From Siphonodentalium dalli (lineage: Eukaryota; Mollusca; Scaphopoda; Gadilida; Siphonodentaliidae), in the NCBI GenBank assembly GCA_032622095.1, contig CP136066.1:91223319-91287318 (forward strand): a stretch of DNA of 64,000 nt. The letters are read 5' to 3'. Shown in pieces: positions 11,495 through 46,155 of this stretch. Numbering within the stretch: the first letter of the stretch is position 1; the number at the start of each line of letters is the position of its first letter. The notes beneath the pieces were generated by a model that was given only the letters and a program-made list of their open reading frames with translations, ran no database searches and was not told the DNA's origin. The translations under genes were made by a program, and so were the position numbers.

Positions 11495-12025
11495 TCACCT
11501 CGTCTTCTTTGAAAACAGTTGAAGCTTATTATATCTCTCTCTATGTAGATTATATGTCAGTCTCCGTGAGTGGAAGTGTAAATCAGTAAGACCAGCTTTT
11601 GAAATATCGTTGGTAGCTGCACTGGGATCAATAATCAGCTGCAATAGACTGTGTTTAGTTATGGGGTTTCCAAGCTGGTGTTCTTTTAGTACTGCATCCT
11701 CAAGTTTCGAAAGGGCAGCACTGCGTGCTCCATATAATGCATTACAGTTAATAAGGAAGTGTTCCAACGTCTCAGGTGCTTTTCGACAGAGCTGACAAGT
11801 AGGGTCTACTTCATTCTTGTTGTACTTGGCATGGTTTGACTGGAGCGTGTAGGTACCGGTAACAATTTTTGCTTTGACAGGTATTCGTGTATAATCACGG
11901 CTACTGAGCTGACAAGTCTGAATAACTGGATGACAGGTTCGAGGGGGATAGACCTTAGAGAGATGGTTCAGTGAGGGATACAGGATAGCTTCATTGAGAA
12001 TAAGTTGTCGCCAATGCTTGTTCAC
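11495..12025 (-). pseudogene. LINE C-terminal CCHC knuckle
   Basis: The last segment of the element. It contains CQLCRKAPETLEHFLINC, spacing C-x2-C-x8-H-x4-C, the cysteine-histidine motif found at the C-terminus of many non-LTR reverse transcriptases. It is followed by a short helical tail (RRLTYNLHRERYNKL) and a stop at 11495. The start is not a true initiation site; the frame is the continuation of the upstream piece after a frameshift. Confidence 0.85.
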
Positions 12026-12576
12026 CGCTTTTTGATTATCATCTTCGTATGTAATTTTGGTGAAGGATTATGGAGCATATATAGAGGTTCTGGTAGGTTG
12101 TACATAAGAAGCAATTCTTTGATGGCGATAAACCAGCTATGACTGGTTGATGATTTACTGTCAAGTTGTCTTTGTGCCAACTGTCGTTCGCAGGATTTCT
12201 CAGGAAGTCGGCATATGTTGGTGAATAATCCAATTGCTTTCTTGTGAATTATAGCTTCGATAGGTAGTAGTCCTGATAAAATGTAGATAGCTGGTTTTGC
12301 AGCATTGTTCGGTAGAGATAGCAGTTGTCGTGCGAGTCGTCCCTGATGTAACTCCAGTTTATCCAGCTGTGTACCCGATGGTAATATAACCTCAAGTCCA
12401 TAAGAATAGAGTGGGGATATGTATGTGTTGAACAGAGCAAAGGCTGTTATTGGATCGACACCATTTTCACCATGGAGACCTGCTCCAATCAGTGCATATG
12501 CAGCTTTTGTAGCCCTCTTTATATTCTCATCCACTGCTGTCTGGGATTGATTATTCCATGTTCTTGTGATACCCAT
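12022..12576 (-). pseudogene. LINE thumb / connection region
   Basis: This is in frame with the reverse transcriptase fragment, seven codons below its TAA. It shows the usual post-RT features of LINE proteins: GITRTWNNQSQ, YALIGAGLHGENGV, FNTYISPLYSYGLEVILP. Near 12030-12060 the coding sense moves to another frame (YEDDNQKAVNKHW), a second frameshift. Confidence 0.82.
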
Positions 12577-12597
12577 ATGCGAAGTGCTCTCAACTGT

Positions 12598-13521
12598 TTA
12601 CATGTCAGCACCGTTAATGTTAAGTGGTGGATAAATTATTTCAGGCTGATTGGAGGTCTTTACTTGAAGGATGACTCTCTTTTTCTTTTGAAGTAGGTAG
12701 CCTTCCTTACGGCTATACTCGTAGCAGATGTCGACCAGATGTTGAAGTTTCAGTGGACAGTTACTGAGAAGAGTTACATCATCTGCACATGTTGGGGAGG
12801 TAACATTGGCTGGACCAATATATGTTGTGCAATCCGAAAGAGATAGACGGTACAGAAGGTCATTTATATATACTTTGTAGAGGTCAGCACTCAACACTTC
12901 ACCTTGACGTACCCCTTGGTGATTGATGAAGCGTTGTGAAAGTTGGTTCTGCCATTTAACAGCTGTAGTTGCATTATCATACAGTTTCTTAATCATCATC
13001 CATTCATGGTCTTCGACACCAATATAAAAGAGTTTCTTGAGAAGATTATCATGTACAACTACATCAAATGCAGATTTGGCATCCAGAAATGCTATATATG
13101 ATGGGCGATTGAGGTCTCTGTTATTGCGACACCATTCCTCCACAATCAGTGAACAGTTCATAGGCGATGAATGTTTTGTAAATCCGCGTTGGAGTGGATT
13201 CTGTGACTCTATAATCTTCTTGTTGATTCGAATTTTTAGTACAGCTTCGATGGTACGGCATAAGACAGGAGTTATTGTTATACCACGGTAGTTGCATGAG
13301 TGATGTTTATCTCCCTTGTTCTTGAAGATTGGATTTAGAGTACCTAGCGTTAGACATTCTGGCAGATCATCAGCTAGAACTAGGTGGTTGATGAGATTCC
13401 GTATAATGGTCAGCAGGTCACTGCCAGGAAAGTAAAGGTGTTCAGCTGAAATTCCATAGGGATCTAATGCTTTTCCCCTGTTTAGCATTTTTATTGCTTG
13501 GTGAACGTCATCGCATGTCAC
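12598..13521 (-). pseudogene. LINE reverse transcriptase domain
   Basis: This fragment carries the reverse transcriptase palm: NYRGITITPVLCR near its start, box A in AFLDAKSAFDVV, box B GVRQGEVLSADLYKVYIND, and the catalytic pair in CADDVTLLS. Both box A and box C aspartates are present. The same frame stays open upstream to the frameshift at about 13741. It ends at a TAA (12598-12600) directly before sequence that continues in the same frame, so one point change accounts for the break. Confidence 0.9.
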
Positions 13522-13634
13522 TGTATTGAAGAGTAATGTTGGAGCAATTTCGCAGAGCTGCTGAATACTGTATTTCTCTTTCTGTATGGATTTAATATAA
13601 TCAGCATCAATCTCGTTACTTGGTGATTCAGTTG

Positions 13635-15080
13635 CTAGTTTCTTAAAGTGGTTAAACCATCCCTCAAGTATGTTTTCACTGCCATAAATTTCTTCGCCAA
13701 CATGTAAATCTTCAATGAGGCAGTTTGATCGTTTTTTTTTTGCTTGCGGATCAATCTATGGAATAGCTGGTTGTCAGTTGATCGTGCATTGATAATTTCT
13801 TCTTTCACCAGTGCTTTTGTTGTAGCTTTTTGCACTCTTATCTCCCGACGTAGGGCTTGAGTGGTTAGCTGCTTTTCAATCAACATATGGTTAGTGGAGT
13901 CAATTGGACGTCCTTGAGTTTTCCATTTAAAAAACGCTTGCTTTTTCTTTTGCACAGCATCAGTTATAGCTGGAGATAAGATTTTGAAGGATTTCCGCCG
14001 AGCCGAAACTTTTCTTCTTGGAGTAAGTTGATCAGATGCAGTAGACAGAGCATGGTGGATAAGTTCTATATATGTACCAGGATCAGTAGATAAAGTATTG
14101 CGATTGAGTTTGGAGAGTTCATCACTGACGGCTTGTTGGTACTTATCCTTATCAATTTTTCTCCATGGAATTCTTCTGGTAATTATAGGAGGATTTTCTT
14201 TCTTCTCGGTAATAGCAAGATTAACCTTCACTAACATCAGCACAGGATGATGGTCAGATACATTACCATTAAGATCTTGTAGACTGTCCACAGATATTAT
14301 ATCGTCTTCTTTTGATTTGTGTATCAGTATAAAGTCAATTAAAGAGGATCCATAACCATTGACGTTATTGAAAGTTTTTTCAGTTTGTGGTGACGTCATT
14401 CCATATTTCTCTATAAGCGCTGCTATACCATTAGAGCGTAATGAGTTATCATTTACATGAATATTTTCGTTGAAGTCGCCTCCAAGCATAATCTGGTGTG
14501 TGTTTGCAAAATTTCCCAAAATCACATCTAGCTGGGTGATGCATTCTAGATATTCAGTCACTGATTCCTTGTTGCCTTTGCATGGTAGGAAAACTGCTAT
14601 AATTAGAAGAGGGTCCATCGTTGAGAGCTCGATACATAATATCCTATTATTTCCTTCAGGCATTTCCTTTACTAGGGGATCAAGTTTCTCTTTCCACATG
14701 ATGGCTACACCACCCCGTCCTCTGGGCATTTGGATAGGTGGAATGGGATCACCTGTGTCAACAGCTTTACCAGTTGCATTAAATACATCAGAGATAGTTT
14801 GAAGTTCATGTAGTTGACAGTCATATAACCAGTGTTCTTGAATGAGAAGAATATCGGCCATACTTGCAAGATCAGGTAAAATAACGTCGCATGTATGAAT
14901 ATTCTTACAATTATACGTAATAACGGACAGTACTTCTTTATTTTCTTCTACCTTCTTGTTGCTATCAAAATTAATCAAATCCATTAGTTCCGCCCCTTCC
15001 AAATCCTCCCGGGTCATTCCCAAATCTCCAATAAATAAAATAAAAATCTGACATAAAAACCACAAAGATGTTACGAACAT
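13635..15080 (-). pseudogene. LINE endonuclease domain (N-terminal part of ORF2)
   Basis: The open frame holds the exonuclease-endonuclease-phosphatase fold: VITYNCKN with the first catalytic Asn, ADILLIQEHWL with the metal-binding Glu, GRGGVAIMWK, GGDFNENI with the Asp/Asn pair, LIDFILIH, and SDHHPV with the terminal Asp-His. All key residues are present, so this domain may be intact. This enzyme nicks target DNA to prime reverse transcription. The frame then reads into a basic linker and goes wrong in the A10/T10 run (13732-13741). After that the neighbouring frame (EEIYGSENILEGWFNHFKKL) carries the conserved continuation. The first ~21 codons probably come from flanking repeat. Confidence 0.88.
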
Positions 15081-15590
15081 GACTTTTGGAACTTATTCCC
15101 TATTCCTTATTCCTTATTTTTTTAAATATCGCTTTCGACCGATTTGACGGCATGGTAGGTGCATGGGTGGCCGGCCCCAAATACCACCTAGAAACACCCC
15201 ACCATCACCCCGGGGGTGCCACACCGAGGGGGTGAAAATGGGGTATGGACCATTTTCGAGAACGGTAAGAATTTCGGCCGATTTGACGGCATGGGTGGGT
15301 GGCCGGCCCCAAATACCCCCTAGAAACACCCCGACCCCCCACCCATCACCCCGGGTGGTACCACCCCGAGGGGGTGAAAATGGGTAGGCCTATGGAGCAA
15401 TTTCGAGAACGGTAAGGATTTCGGCCGATTTGACGGCATGGGTGGGTGGCCGGCCCCAAATACCCCCTAGAAACACCTCGACCCCCACCCATCACCCGAG
15501 GGGGTGAAATGGGATATGGAGCAATTTCGAGAACGGTAAGGATTTCGGCCAATTTGACGGCATGGGTGGGTCAAATACCAAAAAAATGAG
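15078..15590 (-). repeat. ~130-bp tandem units with ACTTATTCCCTATTCC end
   Basis: The outer end (ACGAACATGACTTTTGG, then TATTCCCTATTCCTTATTCC) is the inverted copy of the end at about 26950-26991. About four units follow, with CGATTTGACGGCATG, GGCCGGCCCCAAATACC, ACACCCCGACC and GGGGGTGAAAATGGG. The LINE abuts this end. Reading frames in the array are artefacts of the repeat. Confidence 0.8.
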
Positions 15591-24984: not shown

Positions 24985-25505
24985 ATAAAATAAATGGCTC
25001 AAACCCGATGTATCCCCCGGGGTGAGGGGTGATGTGCTTCTAGTTGGTATTTGGGGCGAGCCATCCACACATGCCGTCAAATTGGCCCAAATCCTTACCG
25101 TTCTCGAAAATGCTCCATACCTCATTTTTACCCCCTCGGGTGACATCCCCCCCGGGGTGATGGGTGGGGGTCGGGGTGTTTCTATGTGGTATTTGGGGCG
25201 GGCCACCACCAATGCCGTCAAATCGGTCGAAATCCTTAACGTTCTCGAAAATATATGGTCCATACCCCATTTTCACTCCTTCGGGGTGGCACCCCCGGGG
25301 GTGATGGTGGGGTCGGGGTATTTCTAGATGGTATTTTGGGCAGGCTACCCACACATGCCGTCAAATCTGTCGAAATCCTTACCGTTCTCGAAATGGTCCA
25401 TACCCCATTTTCACCCCCTCGGGTTGGCACCCCCCGGGGTGATGGGTGGGCGTCGGGTGTTTCTAGATGGTATTTGGGACCGGCCACCCACCCGGTGTCA
25501 GACCG
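24985..25505 (+). repeat. ~130-bp tandem units, plus orientation
   Basis: Four units of the family at 15078-15590 in the opposite sense: GGTATTTGGGGCGGGCC, ATGCCGTCAAATCGGTCG, AAATCCTTACCGTTCTCG, CATTTTCACCCCCTCGG. The expected outer end with TATTCC repeats is missing here; a diverged AGGAATCAGGAATAAAATAAA stands at 24976. Confidence 0.8.
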
Positions 25506-25508
25506 GTT

Positions 25509-25796
25509 TTCCGAAGACCTATTACTACGAAGGCCCACAACTCCGAAGACCCGATTCTCCGACGGCCCACAACTCCGAAGACCCGATTCTCCGACGGCCC
25601 ATAACTCCGAAGATCCGATTCTCCGAAAGCCCATAACTCCGAAGGGCCGATTCTCCGAAGACCTATAACTCCGAAGAACTATAACTCCGAAGGGCCGATT
25701 CTCCGAAGACCTATAACTCCGAAGGCCCGATTCTCCGACGGCCCATAACTCCGAAGGTCCGATTCTCCGAAGGTCCGATTCTCCGAAGATTTTGTT
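25509..25796 (+). repeat. CTCCGAAG tandem array
   Basis: About 18 short units of CGATTCTCCGAAGGCC and CATAACTCCGAAGGCC (15-16 bp, in pairs). The inverted array is at 26492-26755. Confidence 0.88.
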
Positions 25797-26491: not shown

Positions 26492-26755
26492 ACATGATCT
26501 TCGGAGAATCGGATCTTCGGAGAATCGGACCTTCGGAGAATCGGCTCTTCGGAGTTATAGACCTTCGGAGTTATGGGCGTTCGGAGTTATAGGCCTTCGG
26601 AGTTATGGGCTTTCGGAGTTATGGGTCTTCGGAGTTATGGGATTTCGGAGAATCGGGACTTCGGAGCTATGGGCTTTCGGAGAATCGGGGCGTCGGAGAA
26701 TCTGACCTTCGGAGAATCGGACCTTCGGAGTTATGGGTCTTCGGAAAAACGCTAC
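26492..26755 (-). repeat. CTTCGGAG tandem array (inverted partner)
   Basis: Units GAATCGGACCTTCGGA and GTTATGGGCTTTCGGA are the complement of the array at 25509-25796. The 690 bp between also pairs at its edges: GTGTACAGTCCAGTGGC near 25828 with GCCACTGGACTGTACAC near 26458. Confidence 0.88.
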
Positions 26756-27266: not shown

Positions 27267-27884
27267 ATTTGATTGACTTATTATATAACATCTTCATCTT
27301 ATTCACAACTTTAAGGAGTCCTTCTGGCACACGAGAATATTTATCGCCGTTTGATTTGCACCAAGTGAACTCGGCGCATATATAATTGATAGAACAGACC
27401 TCTATTATGCTGATCGTGTCGTTATTTGTTTAAAATACGTATCAATTGACATATACGCACCCCTTCCCTCATTAAAATCTACATATATCGCCCATTTTAG
27501 GGGACCTCCGCGAATTCGGGGACTTCCGCAAAGTGGTCTCCGCAAATAGGGAACTACTGCAAATCGTCGCACCCAATGCAATTTGTAAACAAATACGGTT
27601 GACATGCGTTTTAACGAGGTGAGGTTTAATTTTTTAAAAAGAAGCAATGCTACATATAAACTATTTGTCATGGACTCAGCCAGTGTGCCATATATCTGTG
27701 TAAACTAAGGTCGCTTTGCGTGGTAAAAGTGAAAAGTGAAAGTGGAAATTCGGAAAATCCTATTGAAAATGAAGTACAATTTTGGGAATTCCGCGGCAGA
27801 ATAAGAGAATCTATACTATTGAAAGTGAATGTACGATTCCTGGAATTCTATCAGATATCGCGACTCTGTTCGTTTTCGTGATCA

Positions 27885-28453
27885 TCTATCTCATATATAT
27901 TTTGAAGACCTCTGTCTGTATGTTTGCATGTTTGTCGTATGTTTGTCATTTATACAAATCTACGATTCACGACCGATCGGGACGAAACTTGGTACGTGTG
28001 TGTAGTTTGACCAGGCGGTGGACCTTGTCGTATTGGCGAGCCCGTGCGGCGCCCGCTTCGCGCATGCGCAGACGAGATCTCGGAAACGGGTGGAGCTATC
28101 GACTTGAAATTTGCTATGTGAATGTATCATGCCCCGGATACGAATTGTATCGGGTCGCCGAGCCCGTGCGACGCCAGCTTCGCTCATGCGCAGACCAGAT
28201 CTCGGAAACGGGTGGAGCTATCGACTTGAAATTTGGTATGTGAATGTATCTTGCCCCGGATACGAATTTTATCGGGTCGCCGAGCCCGTGCGACGCCAGC
28301 TTCGCGCATGCGCAGACGAGATCTCGAAAACGGGTGGAGCTATCGATTTGAAATTTGGTTTTTGAATAGCCGGGACAACGTCAGGCTGGGTAGAGCTATC
28401 GACTTGAAATTTGGTTTTTGAATAGCCCGGACAACGTCGGGCTCATCGGCTAG
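27885..28453 (+). mobile_element. Helitron-like element 1 of 6
   Basis: The 5' end is TCTATCTCATATATATTTTG, preceded by A (27884). It contains 122-bp tandem units (28020-28355). The 3' end has the hairpin AGCCCG-gacaacgt-CGGGCT, an 8-base spacer and CTAG at 28450-28453, as expected for Helitrons (5' TC, 3' hairpin then CTRR, insertion between A and T). Non-autonomous: no Rep/helicase frame. Confidence 0.8.
28020..28440 (+). repeat. 122-bp satellite units inside Helitron 1
   Basis: About three units; CATGCGCAGA falls at 28062, 28184 and 28306, a 122-bp period. Each includes GGGTGGAGCTATCGACTTG, ATTTTATCGGGTCGCC-type text, and GCGCATGCGCA in two of the three. Arg-rich open frames on both strands come from the repeat. 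Confidence 0.88.
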
Positions 28454-29581
28454 TCTATACTATATATTTTGAGACTTCGTATATATGTGTGTGTGTGTGT
28501 GTGTGTACTTCATAGAATCCAAAACGCGTGTACATATTGAGCTCAAACCTCCTATGTAAGTGTCAAATCCCACCGACACGACCGTGGTCGCGGTTTAGAG
28601 AAGCTCAGAGCACCCGTTCTCCAATCTCAAATCACCGCAAACGCACGGCGTGGGTTAATCAAGTGATTATTTAATGAGCGTTTGTTTTTGACGCATCTCT
28701 ATAAAGAGCGTCTGTTTGCCATTCAACGTTATTTGCATCTGCAGAGAGATATACGGAACATACATTAAATTTAAAAAACATTTGTTTCTGATCAACCCTG
28801 CGAGCACGGATGGCGCGCTTTGTTTTTACAGTATATAGTTATATACCGAAATCATCCCAGATAATCACGAATATAGCATCAGATTTCTCCCCAGATATAC
28901 CGTTATAAAGCTACTGGAATCTGCCAATCTACGGGAAATTCCAGGGAATGCCGATTGAGCTCAAACTTGCTACCCACGGGAAGTGTCATATATATGAGTG
29001 TGTCCTTTATAGACTCGAACCGATTGAGCTCAAACTTGCTAAATAAGAAAATAGCCCCCAAGCCGTAAATATCAACAACAACGATATTACTAAATACACG
29101 TTTTCGGCAATGTGAGAGTTTTCGGGGAGCCGTGATGCCAACAACAACCACCCGAAGCCCTGAATGCCAACAACAGATTCAATGCAATGTTATCTATTAT
29201 GCAGAGAGATTTCACGACATTACGACGGGTACGGCAGACTCAAAATATTATGCAGACAGATTTCCCGACGGGAAGCGTTTGTTTTAAATTCAATGCAATG
29301 TTATCGTAGAGAGATTTCACGAAACAAAGAATGCGTTGTCTGTCGTTCCTAGGAAGGGGGGATTTCTACGGGTAAATTTTTCCGCCAGAAACAAAAAAAT
29401 TAATTAAAACAATTTACAATTTAATTAAAACAATTTAAAATTAAAAAAAATTAACAATAAAAAAACAATTCAGAAACAAAATATATTAAATTTAAAAAAC
29501 ATTAAATTCATATTCAAAAATGTCATGTTTCTGAAACAAAGCCATGGGACGAATGCCGCCAGTGGCGGGCTAACCTGCTAG
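28454..29581 (+). mobile_element. Helitron-like element 2 of 6
   Basis: It starts TCTATACTATATATTTTGAG directly after the CTAG of element 1. A (GT)n run follows, then a body shared with elements 4 and 5 (GTGATTATTTAATGAGCG, GCATCTGCAGAGAGATATAC). The 3' end has CCGCC-agt-GGCGG, an 11-base spacer and CTAG at 29578-29581. Confidence 0.82.
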
Positions 29582-30633
29582 TCTCTTCTATATATTTTGA
29601 GAACTCCTTGTATTCGAGAGATAGCCCACACCCTCCGGACCTCAATGATATGATCGTGAATGAGTATTGATATACCCCACTAAACTTTGACAAACACCAG
29701 TAATGGTGTGTAGATCATTTACATATCTCTCCTATATATTTTGATACAATCTATCTAATTTACATATCTCTCTTATATATTTATGTTTGTGTGTGTGTTG
29801 TACTTCATACAAATCTACGATTCTCGACCGATCGGGACGAAACTTGGTACGTGTGTGTAGTTTGACCAGGCGGTGGTCGTTGTCGTATTGGCGAGCCGTG
29901 CGACGCCCGTGCAGCGCATGCGCAGACGAGATATCGGAAACGGGTGGAGCTATCGACTTGAAATTTGCTATGTGAATGTATCTTGCGCCGGGTACAAATT
30001 TTATCGGGCCGCGGAGCCCGTGCGATGCCCGTGCAGCGCATGCGCAGACGAGATCTCGGAAACGGGTGGAGCTATCGACTTGAAATTTGCTATGTGAATG
30101 TATCTTGCGCCGGGTACAAATTTTATCGGGTCGCCGAGCCCGTGCGACGCCCGTGCAGCGCATGCGCAGACGAGATATCGGAAACGGGTGGAGCTATCGA
30201 CTTGAAATTTGCTATGTGAATGTATCTTGCGCCGGGTACAAATTTTATCGGGTCGCGGAGCCCGTGCGATGCCCGTGCAGCGCATGCGCAGACGAGATCT
30301 CGGAAACGGGTGGAGCTATCGACTTGAAATTTGCTATGTGAATGTATCTTGCGCCGGGTACAAATTTTATCGGGTCGCCGAGCCCGTGCGACGCCCGTGC
30401 AGCGCATGCGCAGACGAGATCTCGGAAACGGGTGGAGCTATCGACTTGAAATTTGGCATGTGAATGTATCTTGCGCCGGGTACAAATTTTCATGCGCAGA
30501 CCAGATCTCGGAAACTGGTGGAGCTACCGGGTACAAATTTTTCTTATTGAAACGCGTGGAGCTAAAAATTTAAAAAACATATATATAAATGTCATGTTTC
30601 GGACAAGCCGCCGGTGGCGGGCTAACCTGCTAG
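29582..30633 (+). mobile_element. Helitron-like element 3 of 6
   Basis: It starts TCTCTTCTATATATTTTGAG. A second start-like word (TCTCTCCTATATATTTTG) lies near 29727, which may mark a nested start. It holds five full 122-bp units. The 3' end has CCGCC-ggt-GGCGG and CTAG at 30630-30633. Confidence 0.8.
29870..30515 (+). repeat. 122-bp satellite units inside Helitron 3
   Basis: Five full units (CATGCGCAGACGAG at ~29918, 30040, 30162, 30284, 30406) and a truncated sixth. Units alternate in small variants (GATATCGG / GATCTCGG; GTCGCCGAG / GTCGCGGAG), so a two-unit higher-order pattern is visible. Confidence 0.88.
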
Positions 30634-31683
30634 TCTATACTATATATTTTGAGACTTCGTATATATGTACTTCATAGAATCGAAAACGGTTCGCTCGATT
30701 GAGTTCAAACTTCCCATCTAAGGGTAAAAACCCAAGAACACCGTAGTTGTCGGGTTTTGGAGAAGCTCTGAGCACCCTTTATCCACTCCCAAATCACCGC
30801 AAAGGCACGGCGTGGGTTAATCAAGTGATTATTTAATGAGCGTTTGTTTTTGACGCATCTCTATAAAGAGCGTCTGTTTGCCATTCAACGTTATTTGCAT
30901 CTGCAGAGAGATATACGGAACATACATTACATTTAAAAAACATTTGTTTCTGACCAATACTGCGAGCACGGATGGCGCGCTTTGTTTTTACAGTATATAG
31001 TTATATACCGAAATCATCCCAGATAATCACGAATATAGCATCACATTTCTCCCCAGATATACCGTTATAAAGCTACTGGAATCTGCCCACGGCAATGTCG
31101 GCTTATATGACATATTTACTACACATGACAGCCGATTGACAATTGGTCTCTATATATGTACCAAAATTACGCCGCGTTGGTGACTGGGAAATTCCAGGGA
31201 ATGCCGATTGAGCTCAAACTTGCTACCTACGGGAAGTGTAATATATATGAGTGTGTCCTTTATAGACTCGAACCGATTGAGCTCAAACTTGCTAAATATT
31301 GACTGGGAAATTCCAGGGAATGCCGATTGAGCTCAAACTTGCTACCTACGGGAAGTGTCATATATATGTGTGTGTCCTTTATAGACTCGAACCGATTGAG
31401 CTCAAACTTGCTAAATACGGGAAGTGTCATGGACGGGTTCATTGAAAAACAAAAAAAAATCGGGTAAAATTGAAAAACAAAATTAAAAAGGCACAATTAA
31501 CTCCTTGAAAAACCAAACAAAATCGGGTAAAATTTAAAAACAAAAAAATTAAAAAGGCACAATTAACTCATTGAAAAACAAACAAATTAACTCATGCAGC
31601 ACAAGTGTCTCGGAACCTGTTGCAATTGCTTTTTCGAACAAAGCCATGGGACGAATGCCGCCAGTGGCGGGCTAACCTGCTAG
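30634..31683 (+). mobile_element. Helitron-like element 4 of 6
   Basis: It starts TCTATACTATATATTTTGAG. The body matches element 2 and has an internal ~115-bp duplication (31185-31420) around GATTGAGCTCAAACTTGCTA. The 3' end has CCGCC-agt-GGCGG and CTAG at 31680-31683. Confidence 0.82.
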
Positions 31684-32793
31684 TACTATATATTTTGATA
31701 CTTCCGTATATATGTGTGTGTGTGTGTGTGTACTTTATAGAATCGAAAACGGCTGGCTCGATTGAGTTCAAACTTCCCATCTAAGGGTAAAAATCCACGA
31801 ACACCGTAGTTGTCGCGTTTTGGAGAAGCTCTGAGCACCCTTTATCCACTCCCAAATCACCGCAAAGGCACGGCGGGGGTTAATCAAGTGATAATTTAAT
31901 GAGCGTTTGTTTTTGACGCATCGCTATAAATAGCGTCTGTTTACCATTCAACGTTATTAGCATCTGCAGAGAGATATACGGGAACATTGAGTGGTTTCCT
32001 ATGCGGGGAGATTTATTGGATGCCATAGTACTCTTACAACATCATTGTTATAGTATGTATGACACTTAGGTCAGGGCTTAGGGGGCGGTAGTTATAGGCA
32101 TAATGCTTCTCAGAAATCCCGGTTACAAACCAACCGGTTACAAACAAACGCAACGTTATCGCTCGAAATTTATTATGCAGAGAGATATACGGGAACAAGT
32201 GCTTTCCTATTTTTAGAACGCAACACATGGGGTTCACGACGGGATTAATTGACTGTCCGCTCTTTGTGAGGATGGGGTTCACGACGGGATTAACTTTGCG
32301 GGGACTATTGACAATCTCGTAAGGGTGGACAACCTCTGTCAGGGGCTGCTCAATGGCCACGGGCAGGTTAAAAAAAATCATACCTCTTCTGGGTCTGGGC
32401 GTGTATAGACATGAGCGTGTTGTGTTCCTAAGAACGCGGAGCGTGTTGTGTTCCTAAGAACGCGGATCGGGTAAGTTTTTCCGCCCTAGGTGAGCTCAAA
32501 CTTTGTATATAAGTGTAAAAACACACGGGGATCCTCGACGTCGCATTGTGTGAAACATTCTTATGTCTGTCGTTCCTAGGAATTTTTCATCGGGTCAGTC
32601 TTAACCTTCAAACGGGTACCCACAAATTATATATTGGACCCCGACACGACCTTGACCTTGAAAATGATCAATTCAAGGTCAAATCGGGTAAAATATTGAA
32701 AAACCCAATATTAACTCATTGAAAAACACAAACAAAACATAAAACATTGCCATGTTTCTGACCAAGCACGCCAGTGGCGGGCTAACCTGCTAG
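31684..32793 (+). mobile_element. Helitron-like element 5 of 6
   Basis: It starts TACTATATATTTTGATACTT, so the leading TC appears lost or shortened. The body matches elements 2 and 4 near 31760-31985. The 3' end has CGCC-agt-GGCG and CTAG at 32790-32793. Confidence 0.78.
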
Positions 32794-32816
32794 TCTATTA
32801 TATATTTTGGAAGATT

Positions 32817-32847
<31 letters not shown>

Positions 32848-33529
32848 AATCGATGAACTCGAAAACGGCCGACCCGATTTCGATGAAACTTGTGGGGGTA
32901 TGTGGGGGTATCTTCGGCCGGGGAGTGACATATGCCTATTAATTTGCCCGTGCGACGTGACCTTGACCTTGAAATCGGGTAATTTCAAGGTCAAACGCCC
33001 GAATATCACGGGAGTTCGATGAAACTTGGTATGTGGGGATGCCATCGGCCGGGGAGTGGCATAAACCTATCAATTTGCCCGTGCGACGTGATCTTGACTT
33101 TGAAATCGGGTCATTTCAAGGTCAAACGCCCGAATATCACGGGATTTCGATGAAACTTGGTATGTGGGGGTACTTTCGTATGGGGAGTCTCATAAGCCTA
33201 TTCATTTGCCCGTGCGACGTGACCTTGAAATCGGGTCAATTCAAGGTCAAATCGGCAATTTTGATGGAATTTCGACAAAATGTTATACATAGGGTTACTT
33301 TTGTCCATGAGTGTTTTGGGCGGGTCCAATCGTGACACCGACCTGACCTTGACCTTCAAAATGATCTATTCAAGGTCAAATCGGGTAAAACCGGATGGAT
33401 TTCGACGGGCACGTTTGTCGGGTACTTTTGTCCGGGCAGTGTTTTGGACTGGTCAAACCGTGACCCCACTTGACCTTCAAAATGGACAATTCAAGGTCAA
33501 AGCCCGGACGAAGTCGGGTCACCTTCTAG
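32794..33529 (+). mobile_element. Helitron-like element 6 of 6
   Basis: It starts TCTATTATATATTTTGGAAG, with a (GT)n run. The body has ~125-bp repeats with GATTTCGATGAAACTTG, GTGCGACGTGACCTTGA and TCAAGGTCAAA. The 3' end has CCCGgacgaagtCGGG, then CTAG at 33526-33529 followed by T (33530), so the outer boundary of the array fits an A|T target. Confidence 0.82.
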
Positions 33530-33757
33530 TAGGTTATATAAGGTCTATATGACCACGAAAACGAGTCGATACATCCATCGATACAAACCCATTGTGTATA
33601 CGATACAATTTTGACTTGATGAACAGAAAATAAAAGATCGCGGTTACTCCAACAGAACTTGCAGGCATCCGCACTCCAATTAAAATTACCCATAATTCAT
33701 TCACTACACCAGGGGCTCCCAATGGGTTATACATTATTTTCAGGCTATCAGATTATT

Positions 33758-45317: not shown

Positions 45318-46155
45318 AAGATAACCTGGCATTAAGGAAACTTTTTACGATATATACATAACATCATTCAACATGGTGCGAAACAGTTTCCATAATTACA
45401 TGTTGCTTTACAACCTCCAAGTTGAAAAACAACCGACATAGAAAGAAATGTTCTGCATATATTTTGAGACTATAATTTTCAAAGTACATGTAGTTGCAAC
45501 TCTGCTTTTTTTGTACTCTTTACTACTAGTACTGATAGTGTAATGATCAATGAGGTCAAAATTTAATAAAATACAAAAGCACAAAGTACAGTCATGTTAT
45601 TTTTCTTTTCTTACAGATTCTTTGCGAGCAAATCTTCTAGTCCCGAGCCTGCTGAGCCTGGTATAAGCTCTGACATTCGTACTATTATAACATCAACTCC
45701 ACGATTATCTGCTACCGCTATTACACATGCTGTGTGCAAGATAACCTGGCATTAAGGATACTTTTTACGATATATACATAACATCATTCAACATGGTGCG
45801 AAACAGTTTCCATAATTACATGTTGCTTTACAACCTCCAAGTTGAAAAACAACCGACATAGAAAGAAATGTTCTGCATATATTTTGAGACTATAATTTTC
45901 AAAGTACATGTAGTTGCAACTCTGCTTTTTTTTTTACTCTTTACTACTAGTACTGATAGTGTAATGATCAATGTGGTCAAAATTTTATAAAATACAAAAG
46001 CACAAAGTACAGTCATGTTATTTTTCTTTTCTTACAGATTCTTTGCGAGCAAATCTTCTAGTCCCGAGCCTGCTGAGCCTGGTATAAGCTCTGACATTCG
46101 TACTATTATAACATCAACTCCACGATTATCTGCTACCACTATTGCACATGCTGTG
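45318..46155 (+). repeat. 421-bp direct tandem duplication carrying exon 2
   Basis: Two nearly identical units run from about 45318 to 45734 and from 45738 to 46155. Both start AAGATAACCTGGCATTAAGG and end CATGCTGTG. Differences are a few substitutions and a length change in a T run. The second unit alone continues into the intact 3' half of the exon. The high identity over intron and exon alike suggests a recent event. A short TGTG match at the junction would fit slippage or microhomology-mediated duplication. Confidence 0.85.
45617..45734 (+). pseudogene. Truncated duplicate of exon 2
   Basis: This repeats the first ~118 bases of the exon at 46038-46196, including its pyrimidine tract and ACAG acceptor, with only two or so base changes. 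It breaks off after CATGCTGTG, where the second unit of the duplication begins, so it lacks the genuine donor. Reading on leads to a stop (TGCAAGATAACCTGGCATTAA). It should be skipped in a normal transcript, or be a source of misspliced RNA if the GTGTGC at the junction acts as a donor. It is part of the 45318-46155 tandem duplication. Confidence 0.75.

Follow-up and report, generated by a model that had tools for sequence, protein, structure and literature searches.

Stepwise insertion at resident 5' tips as the probable origin of a head-to-tail Helitron array in the scaphopod Siphonodentalium dalli

An array of six Helitron-type elements in the genome of the scaphopod mollusc Siphonodentalium dalli was probably built by successive insertions at and inside the 5' tips of resident elements, so that the array grew leftward. 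The DNA analyzed (hereafter the window) is 64,000 nucleotides long and corresponds to C6:91223319-91287318 of a 2.23-Gb genome in nine contigs. On inspection, positions 27889 to 33529 of the window proved to be filled by the six elements, arranged head to tail with zero spacer. The members of the array are canonical (Helraiser-like) non-autonomous Helitrons. The evidence comprises the forms of the junctions, the empty host site, four displaced bases together with their association genome-wide, a TATA-type motif beside the target, and the match of most tips to that motif.

Results

Architecture of the array

The array is bounded by A at 27884 on the left and by T at 33530 on the right, and its inner junctions lie at 28453|28454, 29581|29582, 30633|30634, 31683|31684 and 32793|32794, all of which agree with a preliminary description of this DNA. 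Every one of the six elements, each on the plus strand, terminates in CTAG. Element 1 (27889-28453) has the tip TCTCATATATATTTTG, the end CATCGGCTAG and a 122-bp satellite at 28037-28367. Element 2 (28454-29581) has the tip TCTATACTATATATTTTG and the end CCTGCTAG. Element 3 (29582-30633) has the tip TCTCTTCTATATATTTTG, and the 122-bp satellite occupies 29892-30490; further tip-like sequences are found inside it, TCTCTCCTATATATTTTG at 29726 and a sequence like TCTCTCTTATATATTTATG at about 29768. Element 4 (30634-31683) carries the same tip as element 2 and is of its type, being 92% identical where aligned. Element 5 (31684-32793), whose tip reads TACTATATATTTTG, is without its first four bases and is cut at TCTA|TACT. 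Element 6 (32794-33529), which is probably the oldest insertion, has the tip TCTATTATATATTTTG, the end CACCTTCTAG and a 131-bp repeat at 32897-33251.

Alignment of the bodies of elements 2/4, 4/5 and 2/5 gave identities of 92, 85 and 80%, respectively, over 79-85% of their length. The two body types recognized at the outset (satellite-bearing elements 1 and 3, and the body shared by elements 2, 4 and 5) hold, and element 6 with its 131-bp repeat adds a third.

As expected of canonical Helitrons (Helitron1), all six elements have 5' TC and 3' CTRR termini, allowing for the four displaced bases of element 5, and a short hairpin precedes each 3' end (exact arms in four of six, weaker stems in two of six). 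The exact GC-rich inverted-repeat arms are 5-6 bases long and stop 6 bases before CTAG at 28453 and 9 bases before it at 29581, 30633 and 31683. The ends at 32793 and 33529 fail the same exact-arm filter, and a weaker stem forms there in an RNA fold. When the last 36 bases were folded as RNA, a different, overlapping pairing was preferred at 29581, 30633 and 31683. The hairpin previously placed 8-13 bases before CTAG is therefore correct roughly but not strictly.

The empty host site

The left host flank (27765-27884) is a portion of a dispersed host repeat, and its final A is the A of the target A|T. On the other side (33530-33542, plus strand), T is followed by TATA-like sequence (TAGGTTATATAAG). 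The host target lies between inverted arms at 27865-27875 and 33551-33565 (CGTTTTCGTG / CACGAAAACG). The 120 + 120 bp of flanking DNA were joined and used as a query. Among the best 40 of 790 candidates, which were scored, all 40 places matched at 91-94% identity over 230-240 of 240 bases; two further short rows were inverted matches of the host repeat. In each of the four empty sites read, GATCA|TAGGTTATATAGG is contiguous over A|T, and TCTA, target duplication and loss of bases are all absent. The first insertion therefore took place between A and T of the dispersed host repeat, and the TCTA at 27885-27888 is not host DNA. Insertion at A|T without target duplication, a further property of canonical Helitrons, is likewise seen in the flanks collected, where the left neighbor base is A in 41 of 43 cases and the first base on the right is T in 25 of 27.

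Displaced tip bases at the left boundary

Because the A|TC front of a resident element is itself an A|T site, a newcomer entering there leaves CTAG|TC inside the array and A at its far left. The G|T inner junctions had been taken to exclude A|T insertions; this argument was rejected, since A has been moved to the left end, and all steps in the window can be A|T insertions.

One junction departs from this form: the sequence at 31684 is CTAG|TACT, as would result if a newcomer had entered a resident tip four bases from its start (TCTA|TACT). The bases missing there are the TCTA found at 27885-27888 (plus strand). Elements 1-4 thus lie nested within element 5, and their insertion carried its first four bases to the left end. 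Element 1, for which a start at 27885 had been proposed, consequently begins at 27889. In 13 of 100 listed junction rows, CTGCTAG is followed at once by the element 1 tip, TCTCATATATATTTTG. The variant 5' end that had been described for element 5 is instead an ordinary tip cut at an internal A|T, and TACT as a separate type of 5' end was rejected, because 15 of 16 left boundaries carry TCTA, as follows.

A sample of 100 listed places of the form A|TCTATACT was taken, and the upstream letters were examined for 72 of them, all 16 boundary-junction pairs included. Where the next CTGCTAG|TACT junction lies 600-1400 bp downstream, TCTA is directly upstream of the boundary in 15 of 16, the single miss (L047) having TCTA three bases farther upstream. 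Where no such junction occurs within 5 kb, TCTA is present in 10 of 45 (Fisher p = 5.9e-7 for the contrast); this group held 46 places before L019 was removed as a duplicate of L018. Another ten places, where the junction is 0-5 kb downstream yet not in the 600-1400 bp range, were kept out of the comparison; TCTA is found in 8 of these. Some of the 10 TCTA-positive controls may be true cases; note that the count took in CTAG|TACT only after CTGCTAG ends. L018 and L019 (C1:6.06 and 6.47 Mb) are solo copies 0.4 Mb apart with identical flanks on both sides, i.e. a segmental duplication.

The junctions recur across the genome. CTGCTAG-N(0-14)-TATATTTTG has 9,846 matches versus 17 for the reversed control, and CTGCTAG|TACTATATATTTTG occurs 1,541 times versus 0 for its control. 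Cut positions were counted in the first 100 listed, every one on C1 below 31.5 Mb, of the 9,846 matches. Positions 0 and 4 of the TCTATACT tip, both of them A|T sites, are each cut 23 times, and none of these 100 junctions has this tip cut at positions 1-3 or 5-9. Exact CTAG|tip junctions number 2,513 for TCTATACT, 8,729 for TCTATTAT and 245 for TCTCTTCT and, with the 1,541 of the TACT form (CTG in front), sum to 13,028. Solo copies with A|T flanks, whose absence would have told against the preliminary description, are also present, and exact tips preceded by A amount to 1,860 for TCTATACT (including tips behind TCTA), 7,589 for TCTATTAT and 201 for TCTCTTCT. Judged from the assembly, an assembly artefact is extremely improbable: these junction types number in the thousands, whether listed over all nine contigs or counted in the whole genome, and the displaced bases are consistent.

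By successive insertion, the array would have arisen as follows. Element 6 would first have entered A|T of the host repeat, and element 5 would then have entered A|TC before element 6. Element 4 would next have entered the A|T site between bases four and five of element 5 (TCTA|TACT), pushing TCTA to the left, after which elements 3, 2 and 1 would each have entered A|TC before the newest resident. We infer this order from the junctions. The preliminary description had raised repeated use of an element end as a target, and this is supported by the junction forms, the displaced TCTA and the recurrence of TCTA elsewhere.

Concatemers and crossing-over as possible other sources of arrays

The same description had offered rolling-circle concatemers, in which the transposase overruns the end of an element and one insertion delivers several head-to-tail units. 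Such an origin is improbable for the window, where single-element concatemers are a misfit: neighbors have different bodies or are 85% identical at most, and the near-identical repeated units expected of a concatemer are absent. Nor does a concatemer alone generate CTAG|TACT with a displaced TCTA, and the CTAG|TACT neighbor pairs that passed the alignment filter (n = 11) are 82.6-99.9% identical, none reaching 100%. Near-identical units do occur in L005, L006 and L011, with neighbors that are 100% identical across CTAG|TCTATACT (units 1-2 and 2-3 of L005, 2-3 of L006 and 1-2 of L011). Precise head-to-tail circle junctions are described in passages on Helraiser (PMC4778049), and tandem arrays in plants and bats are cited as support for rolling-circle replication and transposition (PMC5876387).

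Higher-order repeats with constant periods are also found, as in L011, where units 1, 2 and 4 are identical and units 3 and 5 are identical, a pattern that would suit a shuffling of units among pre-existing Helitron arrays, by unequal crossing-over or by segmental duplication. Crossing-over multiplies junctions, however, and cannot create them. In the window array no unit is repeated, and the host repeat, interrupted precisely at A|T by the outer ends of the array, is otherwise intact; we give this origin very little weight there. Homogeneous arrays elsewhere, with 100% identical units, need a further step beyond nesting, either multi-unit rolling-circle products or unequal crossing-over. This suggests two processes: nesting, plus amplification by rolling-circle replication or crossing-over.

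A target motif and its likeness to resident tips

Right flanks were used to characterize the target. From the 28 found, L019 (duplicate), L069 at 1392, L009 at 1548 and L011 at 114 (element sequence) were removed; L008, L015 and L032 were added by hand and L037, which resembles a decayed tip, was kept, giving 27 flanks, that of the window among them. After the leading T, the strongest columns are +6 to +9 (T 74%, A 85%, T 85%, A 85%). TATA is found within 15 bases of the target in 26 of 27 right flanks, compared with 5-7 of 26-27 in five farther 15-base bins and with a mean of 8.2 and a maximum of 16 in 2,000 shuffles. No TATA excess was seen in left flanks (7 of 43 versus 7-11 of 43 in farther bins).

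A scoring matrix of 13 columns was built from the 27 flanks, with 11,294 A|T sites as background. The matrix ranks the tip site first in element 1 (1/87, at 27889), element 2 (1/218, position 4), element 4 (1/188, position 4), element 5 (1/168, the cut site) and element 6 (1/111, position 0), and these tips are within the top 0.03-0.43% of the background sites. Transposase from autonomous relatives may thus take a resident 5' tip as its target on account of the likeness of that tip to the preferred site (A|T with TATA at about +6). Tips unlike the motif at position 0 could be hit since the Rep nuclease would nick A|TC anyway to start transposition.

We tentatively entertain a more general possibility, namely that the 5' tip is a copy of the preferred target of the lineage (A|T, TATA at +6 to +9). 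Resident tips would then be landing pads and the donor nick site would be the target site, stacking would proceed leftward in fixed orientation, displaced bases would record its order, and over half of the counted exact tips would have been hit in this way.

Points against stepwise insertion, and a possible ready-made composite

Several results weigh against stepwise insertion guided by tip likeness. A|TCTATACT at position 0 ranks poorly, at 56/218 in element 2 and 34/188 in element 4, and the tip of element 3 ranks 20/189. About 0.4% of the background A|T sites reach the score of the element 6 tip, which by extrapolation gives millions genome-wide, so that the motif alone predicts far fewer self-hits. 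The share of tips directly behind CTAG is 57% for TCTATACT (2,513/4,373), 54% for TCTATTAT (8,729/16,318) and 55% for TCTCTTCT (245/446), and this near-constant share, whatever the match to the motif, means that motif choice is not the only cause. Displaced and missing bases do not always balance: TCTA exceeds TACT in L007 (6 versus 3), L008 (3 versus 2) and L009 (5 versus 3), and TACT exceeds TCTA in L011 (3 versus 1) and L005 (1 versus 0), in parts without identified left ends. Lastly, the 207-bp sequence across the element 2|3 junction is found again, at 97-100% identity, in 39 further listed places, and some of the array may accordingly have come in ready-made, as a composite.

Target mimicry was rejected as a sufficient explanation on its own, because TCTATACT and TCTCTTCT are poor matches at position 0 and yet are joined equally often. 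Motif choice must be supplemented by nicking at the A|TC of the resident itself, by composites or by amplification. The TCTA/TACT tally is balanced in L010, L012, L013 and the window (TACT type); L010 also has one CTAG|TATT junction without a partner in the examined part. Surplus TCTA could come from carry-over when the outer TC serves as the start, or from slippage. Runs of TCTA, with up to four extra units, precede TCTATACT tips at L007, L026, L059 and other boundaries without matching TACT junctions. These look as if repeated use of the tip seeds a TCTA microsatellite.

A composite, for example of elements 2 and 3, might have formed once and then moved as a unit after replication ran past the first CTAG, which would require fewer events in the window. 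The recurrent junction is found on eight of nine contigs (among the best 40 of 1,329 candidates, which were scored), the left partner is a full-length relative of element 2, 98.4-99.1% identical, in six of eight loci read, and end bypass is reported in the Helraiser passages (PMC4778049). In two of the eight, however, the left partner is another variant, and the right partner varies in length (686-900 versus 1,052 bp) and in places in its body. Tips of element 3 occur 201 times without CTAG in front versus 245 times with it, and both partners belong to abundant young families, so that repeated independent pairing is also possible. On balance we regard transfer as a composite as unlikely, and stepwise insertion remains the preferred account of the window.

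Two observations elsewhere concern composites and end bypass. In L053, L054 and L072 (and near L039), CTACTGGAATCTGCCAA, a stretch of the element 2 body ending at window position 28927, precedes A|TCTACGG tips; this is either one recurrent insertion site inside another Helitron or a composite that has spread. L069 has two complete GCCAGTGGCGGGCTAACCTGCTAG-type 3' ends, at 1392 and 1425, 33 bases apart, at one element end, and this doubling is possibly the product of end bypass.

Candidate autonomous partners

A search with the PF14214 profile, for which 150 of 457 candidates were scored, gave 151 matches. L016 holds an 8.7-kb element with an open RepHel frame of 1,613 amino acids. Its predicted protein matches Helitron_like_N (9.3e-56), PIF1 (5.3e-68) and the Helraiser structure 7lcc (E = 2.4e-271), with HSH at 692 and Y832/Y836. 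The ends of L016 are of the element 1 type, with the tip TCTCATATATATTTTG and the last 30 bases differing at one place. L016 is thus a candidate autonomous partner, encoding a putative HUH Rep and Pif1-like helicase between the same ends, of the kind that the preliminary description had proposed looking for. In L015 and L017 (8.5 kb) the tip is that of elements 2/4 and the CTGCTAG end is also of their kind; the frames are broken into three pieces. L015, L016 and L017 all directly abut other Helitron ends, i.e. they lie within arrays. Helitrons are densely clustered, mostly on one strand, over at least 70 kb at C1:13.71-13.79 Mb (L010, L016, L087), and this cluster includes the intact RepHel frame.

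Other features of the window

On the minus strand at 11495-15092 are long frames that we take, from the look of their sequence, to resemble the endonuclease and reverse transcriptase of a retrotransposon lacking long terminal repeats (non-LTR). A 421-bp unit is present in two tandem copies with 98% matches at 45318-46155. TCCGAAG-type repeats of 16/32/48 bp are found on opposite strands at 25510-25788 and 26496-26745, and a GC-rich tandem repeat with a unit of 142-147 bp lies at 25034-25491 and 15197-15571.

Discussion

Tandem and self-inserted Helitrons are already known. The elements described here share with Helraiser/Helibat1 of bats (PMC4778049; PDB 7lcc) the TC..CTAG ends, the 3' hairpin, the A|T target without duplication and the RepHel domains. 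Helraiser is there reported to have an AT-rich preference that is strongest on the 3' side and an AT-rich stretch near its own cleavage site, and copies inserted directly beside another Helitron, with empty sites, are described, adjacent insertion being one of several origins given for 39 exemplars with new 3' ends. A TATA-positioned motif, a displaced-tip footprint and a tip/target comparison were not found in the main-text passages of that paper.

The tandem Helitrons of plants and bats (cited in PMC5876387) are likewise head to tail without spacer. Unlike them, the window array is heterogeneous and nested. The plant case of Xiong et al. (2016) reportedly concerns amplified centromeric elements.

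In Fusarium, self-insertion, including insertion into the 5' end of another element, is proposed in the FoHeli passages for composites and for short repeated 5' termini (PMC5148889). Among relatives of element 3, tips at +7 and +151 recur in eight of eight read. These repeated 5' termini resemble those of FoHeli, and carry-over of the leftmost 5' end, as given there, would explain the extra TCTA here. FoHeli differs in having Helitron2-type ends and few cases, and target mimicry was not found in the same passages. Helentron/Helitron2 relatives have non-canonical ends with subterminal inverted repeats (PMC5148889, in part); the ends of the window elements, by contrast, are canonical. The displaced-tip footprint and the tip/target comparison were not found in a literature search of partially consulted sources, exclusive of subscription papers, figures and supplements.

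Arrays of tandem Helitrons have generally been quoted as a sign of rolling-circle replication. The four-base displacement tells nested insertion from concatemers and yields the insertion order, and it can be tested on thousands of junctions in one genome. If stacking at resident tips operates as tentatively outlined above, self-stacking would be a major route of growth for these elements and would also give rise to satellite-like DNA. Should the tip be a copy of the target, initiation, targeting, orientation and the growth of arrays would all be accounted for by a single nuclease specificity.

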